A DNA stretch of 64,000 nt from the NCBI GenBank assembly GCA_024687165.1, contig JAILEY010000031.1:1-64000 (forward strand). Direction: 5' to 3'. This stretch comes from Treponema sp. (GTDB taxonomy: Bacteria; Spirochaetota; Spirochaetia; Treponematales; Treponemataceae). Positions within the stretch are counted from its first letter, which is position 1. Each line of letters starts with the position of its first letter. Made by a program: the position numbers and the translations under genes. Shown here in pieces: positions 36,183 through 44,365 of the stretch. The notes beneath the pieces were generated by a model. That model made no database searches and was not told the DNA's origin. It was given only the letters and a program-made list of their open reading frames with translations.

Positions 36183-36190
36183 AAATTTTT

Positions 36191-36518
36191 CCGGTTTTGC
36201 GAAGCAAAATGGACGCGGATGCGGACAAGGGAAAATTTAAAAAATAAAATGATGATGCCGGAGGCATCATACGTTTTTTCATATACATTCTGGTTTTGCG
36301 AAGCAAAATGGACGCGGATGCGGACAAGGAAAAATTTAAAAAATAAAATGTTGATGACGAAGTCATCATACGTTTTTTTCATATACATTCCGGTTTTGCG
36401 AAGCAAAATGGACGCGGATGCGGACAAGGGAAAATTTAAAAAATAAAATGATGATGCCGGAGGCATCATACGTTTTTTCATATACATTCTGGTTTTGCGA
36501 AGCAAAATGGACGCGGAT
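36191..36518 (+). repeat. Tandem array of about 3.3 copies of a 99-100 bp unit with two hairpins
   Basis: Units run 36191-36289, 36290-36389, 36390-36488 and a partial copy 36489-36518. Each has the hairpin TTTTGC-GAA-GCAAAA, a GGACGCGGATGCGGAC block and a second hairpin. In units 1 and 3 this is ATGATGCC-GGA-GGCATCAT; in unit 2 it is TGATGAC-GAA-GTCATCA, so both arms changed together. The array fills the gap of about 550 bp between flgE and the truncated barrel gene. Open frames across it have no ribosome sites and only echo the repeat. Confidence 0.92.
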
Positions 36519-40194: not shown

Positions 40195-40740
40195 ATGGCA
40201 GATGAAGATGACGCAAACAACCTCGGTGATGATGGTGATGTTGACGTAGGCATGTCAAAAAAAGGAAAGGCTTCTGCTCCTATAATGGGTATTCTTAAGA
40301 TTGTTTTGATCGGTGTAGCAGCTCTTATCCTTATCATCACAATCGTTGTAATTACAGTAAATATCGTAGGTGAGAAGAAATTTAAATCTGCACCGATTAC
40401 AGAAGAATTCAAAAAGCAGAGAGATTCTCTTGACTGGTATTCTTCTTTGGATCAGATCCGTACAATGACAAGTGATGCTGTTCCTGCAAGTGTTAACGTA
40501 ACAGTTGTTCTTGGTTATAAAAAGGATGATAAAAAGGCTTCTACAGAAATTACAGAACGTCGTATCGAAATCATTGACTTCCTTCGCCGTTTCTTTAGTG
40601 AGTGTTTTGCAGAAGAATTGCGTCCTCAGAATGAACAGCAGCTTAAAATGCAGATTCGTGACCAGATAAATGATGACATTCTTAGCAATTCAAAAATTAA
40701 GGATGTTAAGTTTACGGGATTAGACGTAATTAGGCAGTAG
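40195..40740 (+). CDS. fliL: Flagellar basal-body protein FliL
   Basis: FliL is an inner-membrane protein that surrounds and supports the stators. It has an acidic cytoplasmic N terminus, one membrane segment (about 32-56, IVLIGVAALILIITIVVITV) and a periplasmic domain of about 115 residues (SLDWYSSLDQIRTMTSD, VTVVLGYKKDD, IEIIDFLRRFFSE, NDDILSNSKIKDVKF). The periplasmic part is closely related to a second gene at 43054-43491 that lacks the membrane anchor. GGGAGGA precedes the ATG. Confidence 0.93.
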   Translation: MADEDDANNLGDDGDVDVGMSKKGKASAPIMGILKIVLIGVAALILIITIVVITVNIVGEKKFKSAPITEEFKKQRDSLDWYSSLDQIRTMTSDAVPASVNVTVVLGYKKDDKKASTEITERRIEIIDFLRRFFSECFAEELRPQNEQQLKMQIRDQINDDILSNSKIKDVKFTGLDVIRQ

Positions 40741-40770: not shown

Positions 40771-41805
40771 ATGAATGAAGTTCTGTCACAGGATGAAATT
40801 GACCAGCTCTTACAGGCTATCAGTACAGGTGAAAGTGAAACTGATGAGTTTAAGCCGGTCACTGACTCCAGACGCATAAAAATCTATGACTTCCGTCGTC
40901 CGGATAAATTCTCAAAGGAACAGATTCGTACAGTTTCAAACATGCATGAAACTTTTGCGCGTCTTACTACAACAAGCCTTTCTGCACAGCTTCGTACACT
41001 TGTTCATGTTCACGTTGCATCTGTAGATCAGCTTACATACGAAGAGTTTATACGTTCTATCCCAACGCCTACAACTCTTGCCGTAATCAACATGGATCCT
41101 CTCAAGGGCAATGCTGTTCTTGAGATTGCTCCGGAAATTACATTTATTATCATTGACCGCCTTTTTGGTGGTTCTGGTGATACAGGTGGAAAAGTTAACC
41201 GTGACCTTACTGATATTGAACAGTCGGTTATGGAAGGAATTATTGTTCGTATTCTTGCAAATATGCGTGAAGCATGGACACAGGTTATTGACCTTCGTCC
41301 TCGTTTGCAGCAGATCGAAACAAACCCTCAGTTTGCACAGATTGTTCCTCCGTCTGAAATGGTTATCCTTGTAACACTTGAAATTAAAATCGGTGAAGAA
41401 GCAGGTATGATGAATATCTGTATTCCATATATTACAATTGAGCCAATCGTTTCAAAGCTTTCTTCTTCATTCTGGTTCAGTTCAGTTCGAAGAAGCTCTA
41501 CAACACAGTATTTGAGCACACTCAAAGAAAAGCTTTCTGACGTTGAGATGGAGCTTGTTGCAGAAATCGGTTCAATTAATGTTCCAATCAGAGATGTTTT
41601 GGGTCTTAGAATGGGAGACATTGTAAGACTTGATACAATTAAGGTTGGAGACCCGCTTACGTTGAGCGTTGGAAGTAAGAAAAAATTCTACTGTCAGGCT
41701 GGTAACGTAGGTAAAAAAGTTGCTGTTCAGATTATCAATAAGATTGAAGAACAGGAATCAGAAGAATTTGAAGAATTAACCCCGGAAGGAGAAGATGACG
41801 TATGA
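40771..41805 (+). CDS. fliM: Flagellar motor switch protein FliM
   Basis: FliM is the middle layer of the C-ring and receives CheY-phosphate. The N-terminal CheY-binding motif is [13 protein letters not shown]; the middle domain has [19 protein letters not shown] and GSGDTGGK; the C-terminal SpoA domain has the ending [16 protein letters not shown]. Length 344, normal. Its stop overlaps the fliY start (ATGA). Confidence 0.97.
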
Positions 41806-42995
41806 GCGAAGGTTCTATTTCACAGGAAGAAATTGACGCATTATTGTCTGGCGTAGACGTTGGAGGAATTGGTTCTGGAAGTTCATTTGCATCAGGTCCT
41901 GATGTAGCTCTGGACATTCCTACATTGCAGACTTTTGCAGGAAAAATTAAAGATAAACTTGCTGAAGTTATTAAGGGAATGACAGAACAGGATTGTACCG
42001 CTGGTGAGGCAGTTGTAGAAGGCTGTGACCGCGATAAGCTCCTTGCAAAAATTCCGGAAGTTGTAGTTGCAGTTATGGCAGATTATTCTGCAGGACTTGC
42101 TGGAAGTCATCTCTTCCTCATGTCTCCAGAATTTGCAACAAAACTTGTTGGTTATATCAATAAAGAAGAAAATCCTAATCTTGATGATATGGGTCTTTCT
42201 GTAATTTCAGAAGTTATTTCATCACATTCTGGTGCTGAAATTACAGAATTGAGCGCTACAGGAAAACTTCCTGGACTTGCAACAAATCCACCTGAAGCTG
42301 TAAATCAGCCTAAAGCAATGATTTGTATGCCACAGGGAAATTTCTGCTGTTTTACATACAATGTAAATCTTGGTGGAGAAACATATACACTTTGGGAAGC
42401 AGTTGCAGGTACGGTTGCTGATGGTATGGCTAAGGCTCTTGGCGGAGGAGTAGCTCCGGTTCAGGAACTTGGTGCAGCACAGGCAGCTCCAGCAGCAGGT
42501 TTTACACAGCAGGCTCCAATGGGAGGTATGCAGATGGGCGGAATGCAGCAGCCAATGATGGGCGGTATGGGAATGCAGCAGCCGATGATGGGTATGCAGC
42601 AACCTATGATGGGTATGCAGCAGCCGATGATGGGTATGCAGCAGCCGATGATGGGCGGAATGCCAATGCAGACTCCACCAAATGTTCAGAACCTTCAGTT
42701 CCAGAACTTCCCGCCTTCAATTTCAAGTGCAGAACAGGGAAACATCAGTCTTATCATGGACGTTTTCATGGAGATGACTGTAGAACTTGGTCGTACAAAG
42801 AAAACAATCAAGGATATCCTTGGGCTTGGAGAAGGTACAATCATCGAGCTTGATAAACTTGCCGGTGAACCGGTTGATATTCTTGTAAACCATAAGCCGA
42901 TTGCAAAGGGTGAAGTTGTTGTTATCGACGAAAACTTCGGTGTTCGTGTCACAGAAATCCTTCCGGCACTTGAACACGTTGCATCTTCAATGTAA
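41802..42995 (+). CDS. fliY: Flagellar motor switch protein FliY/FliN
   Basis: A long FliN-type protein of 397 residues. It has an N-terminal FliM-like motif ([15 protein letters not shown]), a CheC/FliM-like middle domain (about 60-215) and a C-terminal SpoA (FliN) domain (about 305-397, [40 protein letters not shown]). Between the last two lies a Met/Gln/Gly/Pro-rich linker made of MQQPMMG units encoded by a 21-bp tandem repeat. It corresponds to FliY of T. pallidum. The 3' end of the gene and its terminator have a decayed duplicate at 43501-43590. Confidence 0.93.
42543..42656 (+). repeat. 21-bp coding tandem repeat in fliY
   Basis: Four adjacent copies (42573-42656) and one set apart by nine bases (42543-42563) of ATGCAGCAGCCGATGATGGG plus a final T or C, encoding MQQPMMG. 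Copies differ by single bases. Copy-number change would lengthen or shorten the linker in frame. Confidence 0.9.
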
Positions 42996-43001
42996 TATGA
43001 G

Positions 43002-43039
43002 CAGGCATTCTGAATTACTCAGGGTGCCTGATTTTTTTT
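43002..43039 (+). terminator. Intra-operon terminator after fliY
   Basis: A 12-bp stem, CAGGCATTCTGA with TCAGGGTGCCTG, around ATTAC, followed by eight T. It lies between fliY and the second fliL-like gene, within the flagellar operon, so it must be leaky or act as an attenuator. Confidence 0.85.
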
Positions 43040-43053
43040 ATTGAGGTTTTGTT

Positions 43054-43491
43054 TTGATTCAGCTTAAAAAATTAATTTTGAGTGTAGCGGCTTTATGTTT
43101 AGTTTCTGGATACGTATTTGCACAGGAGAGTGCTTTATCTGTACCGGTTGCAGAACAAACTAAAAAACAGAAAAAGATTCTTGACTGGTATTGTCAGCTG
43201 CCGCAAATCCGTGCAAAAACAAATGATGATGTTCCTTCTGACGTTTTTGTAAATGTTATTTTTGGCTATGAAAAAGCTGACAAAAAAGCTACAAAAGAAT
43301 TAGAAGAACGTAAAATTGAACTTATAGATTTTCTCCGCACTTTCTTCAGTAAATGCAGTGAAAAAGATTTATCTACTGAAAATGAAAAAGAGCTTAAAAT
43401 CAAAATTCGTGACTGCATAAATAATGAAATTCTTTGTAATTCAAAAATCCTGGAAGTTAGGTTTTTGGAATTTGAAGTAAAAAGAAAGTAA
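43054..43491 (+). CDS. Secreted FliL paralogue without membrane anchor
   Basis: A 145-residue protein with a cleavable signal peptide (MIQLKKLILSVAALCLVSGY, cut near VFAQ) instead of the FliL membrane segment. The mature part is a FliL periplasmic domain: ILDWYCQLPQIRAKTNDDVP, VIFGYEKADKKA, IELIDFLRTFFSKC and INNEILCNSKILEVRF match FliL at 40195 over the whole domain, with about 55 of 103 residues identical by eye. Cysteines near the N and C ends are new (FliL has Ser or Gln there). It starts with TTG after TGAGG. It lies between two related terminators. It may bind the stator ring from the periplasm or be a relic of a duplication. Confidence 0.85.
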   Translation: MIQLKKLILSVAALCLVSGYVFAQESALSVPVAEQTKKQKKILDWYCQLPQIRAKTNDDVPSDVFVNVIFGYEKADKKATKELEERKIELIDFLRTFFSKCSEKDLSTENEKELKIKIRDCINNEILCNSKILEVRFLEFEVKRK

Positions 43492-43500
43492 TATATTTTT

Positions 43501-43545
43501 ACAGAAAACAATTCTGCACTTGAATACGTTTAATCTTCAATGTAA
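43501..43545 (+). pseudogene. Decayed duplicate of the fliY 3' end
   Basis: The bases ACAGAAAACAATTCTGCACT and those following align with the last codons of fliY (42951-42995), and the frame ends at the same place: the remnant reads TENNSALEYV, stop, SSM, stop, where fliY reads [14 protein letters not shown]. An in-frame stop shows it is non-functional. Confidence 0.8.
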
Positions 43546-43552
43546 TATAAAA

Positions 43553-43590
43553 GGGTATTCTGAATTGAATCAGAGTACCCTGATTTTTTT
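43553..43590 (+). terminator. Duplicated intra-operon terminator after the FliL paralogue
   Basis: An 11-bp stem, GGGTATTCTGA with TCAGAGTACCC, around ATTGAA, followed by T. It is homologous to the terminator at 43002-43039, and the lower stem pairs changed together (CAGGCA/TGCCTG versus GGGTA/TACCC). Confidence 0.85.
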
Positions 43591-43645: not shown

Positions 43646-44365
43646 ATGTTTAATCTTAAAAAAATCATGGCAGTTCTTCTTGTTGCCGGAACTGCATCTT
43701 TTTTCTGTGGTGCGCAGAATAATACAGCTGAAGCAAAAGCGGAGACAGAATCCGTTCAGGAAAATAAAGAAAATCTTACGGATGCACAGAAAGCTCAGAA
43801 TGAAATTATTTTTTCAGATACAGAAACTGATGATGCATCTGCCGTTCAAAACAGCGGAACAAGCGGAGTTTTTGTTTTCCTTCGCATGATTCTTGTACTT
43901 GCAATCGTTGTCGGTGCAATCTATGTTATTTTCAGATTTTTTAAGAAGACTGTAAATCCTTCCGGTGATAAAGATCCATTTTTAAGAAAAGTTTCAAGCG
44001 TTCCTCTTGCAGTCGGTAAATCGGTGCAGATTGTTACTTTAATAGACAAGGCCTATATAATCGGTGTGTCTGATAACGGTGTTAATCTGATTGAAAAAAT
44101 TGATGATAAAGAATTGATTAACGCGATGAATCTTTATGCAGACAAAATGGATAATACAGCCAAGCCGAAAAATTTTGCAGAAGTCCTTGAATTATTTATG
44201 CCTTCAAAAGGAACTGAAGTTGCAGCTTCCGGTGAAACTGGAAAAACTGAAAGTAGTTCAAAACAAAAGTTAAAATCAATCTTTGGAAAAAAATCAACTT
44301 ATGATGCAGATACTATGGAATTGATTAATTCCCTTAAGAATAAAAGAATGAATGGTGGTGAATGA
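43646..44365 (+). CDS. fliO: Flagellar export protein FliO/FliZ
   Basis: FliO helps assemble the FliP ring of the export gate. It has an N-terminal signal-like segment (KKIMAVLLVAGTASFF), a polar acidic stretch, a membrane helix near residues 75-93 (FLRMILVLAIVVGAIYVIFR) and a cytoplasmic domain with SSVPLAVGKSVQIVTLIDKA, the typical FliO core, then IIGVSDNGVNLIEKI. Length 239. Position before fliP agrees. GCGGGTGGG precedes the ATG. Confidence 0.88.
   Translation: MFNLKKIMAVLLVAGTASFFCGAQNNTAEAKAETESVQENKENLTDAQKAQNEIIFSDTETDDASAVQNSGTSGVFVFLRMILVLAIVVGAIYVIFRFFKKTVNPSGDKDPFLRKVSSVPLAVGKSVQIVTLIDKAYIIGVSDNGVNLIEKIDDKELINAMNLYADKMDNTAKPKNFAEVLELFMPSKGTEVAASGETGKTESSSKQKLKSIFGKKSTYDADTMELINSLKNKRMNGGE

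Follow-up and report, generated by a model that had tools for sequence, protein, structure and literature searches.

The 64,000-nucleotide stretch of DNA from a gut Treponema analysed here (the window), which comes from an assembly of 2.38 Mb and 97% completeness in a genus represented by 200 genomes, encodes a second FliL protein among its flagellar genes. We propose that this protein, FliL2, is a young paralogue of the FliL of its own genome, that its membrane anchor has become a signal peptide, and that it would act in the periplasm on the layer formed by FliL and MotB; taken as a whole, we give this explanation an even chance. The original prediction had already singled out the gene as a secreted, anchorless FliL. 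What the present analysis adds to it is the scar of the duplication itself, and indications that exported FliL-domain proteins have originated repeatedly and independently.

The operon, read on the + strand throughout, runs motA-motB-fliL-fliM-fliY-(fliL2)-fliO-fliP-fliQ, with the membrane-anchored parent fliL (40195..40740; PF03748, E 3.7e-6) between motB and fliM. The intact fliY (41802..42995) is followed by intrinsic terminator 1 (43002..43040), a 12-bp stem with a T tail (-19.1 kcal/mol, z -4.5), and 13 nt beyond it begins fliL2 (43054..43491, 145 aa), which opens with a TTG start codon and has a GAGG 7 nt upstream (43043..43046), read in the sequence as its probable ribosome-binding site. 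Downstream lie a relic of the fliY 3' end with an internal stop (43501..43545; TENNSALEYV*SSM*), terminator 2 (43552..43590; -18.7 kcal/mol, z -5.4) and the next operon gene, fliO (43646..44365; PF04347, E 4e-11). Two tandem repeats were also seen in this part of the window, one of 99 bp in 3.3 copies (36189-36518) in the interval between flgE and an outer-membrane-protein-like ORF, the other of 21 bp within fliY (42567-42655), encoding a Met/Gln/Pro-rich linker (GMQQPMM).

FliL2 is a FliL domain, as profile, pairwise and fold comparisons all indicate, even though its score against the PF03748 profile (20.8 bits) falls under the curated cut-off of 24.6, which the parent FliL clears at 27.9. 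The homology to the FliL periplasmic domain, first judged by eye at about 55 of 103 residues, is borne out by 62 identities over 117 positions (53%) with the operon FliL at 40195 (pair E 2e-44). The AlphaFold model (mean pLDDT 81) predicts the fold of the FliL periplasmic domain, which lies within the mature chain (43123..43488) and extends from about residue 41, with matches to Helicobacter pylori FliL (7sgn; Z 15.6, rmsd 1.4 over 98 residues), Vibrio FliL (6ahq; Z 13.1) and stomatin (Z 11), and the sole match with E < 0.01 in a sequence search of the PDB was again a FliL, 9hmf.

The origin of the gene can be read from its flanks. The last 45 bp of fliY together with the terminator (42951-43038) are repeated directly 3' of fliL2 (43501-43590; 88 and 90 bp), with a repeat score of 86 as against 30 for the best of 1000 shuffles. 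The closest relatives carry a single copy of the fliY end and terminator, followed by fliO, and a terminator 3' of fliY is present in only 19 of 89 records from relatives. Such a scar is what a tandem duplication of fliL-fliM-fliY would be expected to leave once fliM and the greater part of fliY had been lost, and this appears to be the simplest history; an insertion duplicating its target by another route would give a similar repeat and the same outcome. When terminators 1 and 2 are compared, three stem base pairs are altered on both sides and the stems are kept. An assembly artefact was rejected, as the two scar copies differ by about a quarter with these paired stems preserved.

The copying seems to be recent. 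In a tree of 56 sequences, rebuilt without stray domain fragments, FliL2 is the sister of the FliL of its own genome (aLRT 91.7 / UFBoot 93), and dS between the two is 0.70, compared with 1.5 to over 4 when FliL is set against its nearest relatives. Tree and dS together suggest that the copying took place after divergence from the closest sequenced relatives; a horizontal gain from another Treponema was rejected on account of the same sister position. Signal-peptide FliL proteins beside fliY, proposed at the outset as something to look for in spirochaetes, did not come to light in the relatives, where a FliL between fliY and fliO occurs in 0 of 87 related operon records (some genomes counted twice). 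A query with FliL2 only against the genome contigs found no relative, and an alignment-based scan of these contigs led to Treponema loci, including those of T. berlinense, T. porcinum, T. saccharophilum and T. ruminis. On the sequence evidence, then, FliL2 is a young, lineage-specific paralogue found so far in one species, not a conserved component of the operon.

Might such a gene be no more than a transient duplicate, largely or wholly without function, that is seen under relaxed selection before it decays? Its restriction to a single species speaks for that, as does a high nonsynonymous rate: dN between FliL and FliL2 is 0.33, against about 0.18 between FliL and its nearest relatives, and the pairwise dN/dS of about 0.47 may, by a rough split, approach 0.8 on the FliL2 branch alone. 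So does its position behind a strong terminator, with no sigma-70-like promoter for fliL2 found on the + strand by a search of that type; since this terminator stands just upstream and no promoter was found, expression of FliL2 is probably low. Against it, FliL2 has a reading frame without a stop and retains 26 of the 37 residues conserved at 90% or more among canonical FliLs, a combination to be expected under neutral drift with a joint chance of 0.001 at d = 0.35, 0.009 at d = 0.25 and 0.045 at d = 0.2, so that the inference of constraint varies with the neutral distance assumed. The predicted fold is intact, both terminator copies keep their stems, and similar exported copies arise again and again in the family (see below). 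Absence from relatives along with a high nonsynonymous rate had been named beforehand as grounds for giving up the original prediction, and this is in part what was found, though the retained residues and the open frame argue against plain decay. The protein thus appears to evolve fast and yet under constraint, and we regard a passing duplicate as unlikely.

FliL2 is not alone in the family. Of 146 genus genomes, about a dozen encode FliL-domain proteins at loci other than the flagellar operon, and such proteins are present in other Treponemataceae genera too. Read by eye, the N termini of these orphans are of the signal peptide type (e.g., L031, L033, L034, L035 twice, and L082) or of the lipoprotein signal type (L042, L046, L083, L084 and L085), and others are longer proteins. 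Pfam recognises several domain combinations: a zinc ribbon with FliL (L036); a toastrack domain (DUF4097) with FliL, incomplete at the contig end (L091 3457-4677, on the same contig as L180); and a long exported protein with LysM and a C-terminal FliL domain (L088 1705-3564), in which a FliL closest to that of its own genome (100/100 in the tree) is joined to a peptidoglycan-binding module. At least eight orphans (G195, G037, G162, G206, G269, G129, G112/G059 and G003/G076) pair with a canonical FliL from their own or a near genome at UFBoot >=95, which suggests at least eight further independent origins of exported FliL-domain proteins. Repeated independent duplication would be the simplest reading, and gene conversion within genomes could mimic the pairs in the tree. 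Among the motility genes looked for (MotA, MotB, FlbD, FliM, FliY, FliO, FliP, FliQ and FlgE), none lies beside an orphan, save a fliM fragment at one degenerate locus (L041 3302-3871), where it follows a broken extra fliL copy, another likely duplicate of a fliL-fliM block in decay. Separately, most genomes of the family encode, outside the flagellar operon, a second FliL-like protein, divergent and with a membrane helix (e.g., G000:C39:52215-52493, L081 2572-3009; L092 2487-2990; L043; L045), whose gene stands between hflX- and purD-like genes in the source genome and adjoins secA in a 1.1-Mb T. pallidum-like genome.

The orphans raise the thought that FliL2, like them, has been recruited outside the motor, for instance as an SPFH-like scaffold in the periplasm or near the peptidoglycan. 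Their distance from the tested motility genes and their lipoprotein, LysM, toastrack and zinc-ribbon fusions fit such a job, and so does the pattern of change in FliL2 itself, which is altered at positions 77, 84, 109, 120, 132 and 144 (FliL numbering), conserved at 95-100% in motor FliLs; four of them (77, 120, 132 and 144) are nearly invariant among 64 canonical FliL domains. The positions changed in FliL2 are those most often lost by the other orphans as well (retention 0.67 there vs 0.85 elsewhere, Mann-Whitney p 0.0014). These losses, mostly shared with the orphans, argue against FliL2 as a simple ring mate of FliL, and may mean either that a patch specific to the motor is disappearing or merely that such sites tolerate change. 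Mere tolerance could account for losses at the same positions with no common job, and FliL2 alone is located in the flagellar operon, for which reasons we hold a role outside the motor to be improbable.

The proposal of a periplasmic motor partner depends on the N terminus. Throughout the genus, FliL begins with a conserved acidic tail, followed by a KKGG region and a long hydrophobic helix, which in the parent FliL measures about 20 residues and is very hydrophobic (Kyte-Doolittle 3.24 over 19 residues). FliL2 starts at a point aligned with Met31 of FliL, just 5' of the helix, and so comes without the cytoplasmic tail; KK is followed by a shorter, weaker hydrophobic stretch (Kyte-Doolittle 1.78) and by YVFA|Q, which by eye is a typical signal peptidase I site. 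Where a FliL is expected to have a cytoplasmic N terminus and a single membrane helix, FliL2 thus has a signal-peptide-like N terminus, and hydropathy and cleavage site support, as probable, the earlier claim that a cleavable signal peptide (residues 1-23, 43054..43122) replaces the membrane anchor. The FliL2 segment LKKLILSVAALCLV aligns with LKIVLIGVAALILI of the FliL helix at a protein score of 33; in such local alignments 5 and 6 of 264 background signal-peptide-like N termini score equally high (6, about 2%, for protein), and in simple nucleotide identity, a weak test, 19 of 264. The anchor helix is therefore a likely, if only moderately supported, source of the signal peptide. A lipoprotein was ruled out, ALC being by eye not a lipobox. 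That the stretch stays uncleaved and keeps FliL2, minus the cytoplasmic tail, in the membrane would suit its probable derivation from the FliL helix, and is highly improbable given its lower hydropathy, shorter hydrophobic core and standard signal peptidase I site.

The cysteines had attracted attention as well. Those noticed in the motifs DWYC, RDC and ILC are indeed there (residues 47, 121 and 128), in addition to C101, which is common to the parent FliL, whereas the disulfides suggested for them gained no support: the extra cysteines are not conserved across canonical FliLs and the genome, at 97% completeness, yielded no match to DsbA, DsbB or VKOR, and structural disulfides in FliL2 are for these reasons unlikely.

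We therefore return to FliL2 as an exported paralogue acting at the motor, for which the following course may be envisaged. A tandem copy would have reached from a point within fliL as far as the fliY end, and loss of fliM and most of fliY would have left an N-terminally shortened fliL. Shortening to the Met before the helix, with a few further changes, would have made a cleavable signal peptide of the anchor. The FliL domain, made at a low level probably by read-through past terminator 1, would thereby be released into the periplasm and fold there like FliL. The most likely target of the soluble protein would be the FliL/MotB layer, where it could serve as an additional subunit of the ring or act as a competitor. 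The periplasmic domain of Vibrio FliL alone forms decameric rings in crystals, ring contacts are needed for placement in the motor, and part of the linker preceding the core is needed too (PMC6426602). It is the N-terminal and membrane part of FliL that, alone, has been reported to inhibit motility (PMC10127578); FliL2, which would have shed that part, could join or compete in the ring without bringing in the inhibitory segment. Its role may be that of a mixed-ring subunit, a competitor or a protein with business outside the motor.

How does FliL2 stand beside known systems? With FliL (PF03748) it shares the periplasmic SPFH-like domain, sequence ancestry and a place in the flagellar operon, and it differs in its predicted lack of a cytoplasmic tail and lasting anchor and in the change of several residues invariant in Treponema motor FliLs. 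A second fliL per genome is known from bacteria with two flagellar systems (e.g., Bradyrhizobium, Rhodobacter/Cereibacter), in which each FliL belongs to its own system (PMC10127578), whereas the second copy in this Treponema is a putatively secreted duplicate beside the first. MotE/MotK, MotX/MotY and FlgT, likewise periplasmic proteins acting on stators (PMC10954123), are, going by their description in the literature, not known to be paralogues of FliL. SPFH proteins (stomatin, prohibitin, HflK/C) have the domain fold in common with FliL2; they are membrane-anchored scaffolds, and FliL2 is by its fold match nearer FliL. There is no agreement on what FliL itself does, and the retention or removal of its N-terminal and membrane part has been identified as the source of the conflict (PMC10127578). 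In the open-access literature we found no report of secreted FliL proteins, be it as a paralogue, a duplication, a LysM fusion or a protein with a signal peptide.

The flagella of spirochaetes rotate within the periplasm. With FliL domains that lack the N-terminal and membrane part by nature, the activity of the periplasmic domain in isolation could readily be tested. The scar illustrates how a membrane-anchored motor protein may turn into an exported one without leaving its locus, and the repeated origins may point to selection in spirochaetes for exported FliL domains. Tentatively, and with somewhat less than even confidence, we suggest that the Treponemataceae repeatedly free the FliL ring domain from its anchor through duplication and a new N terminus, that the resulting exported set may tune or tether the periplasmic motor or reuse the SPFH-like ring fold elsewhere in the envelope, and that FliL2 would be the case in which the scar of birth is still visible.
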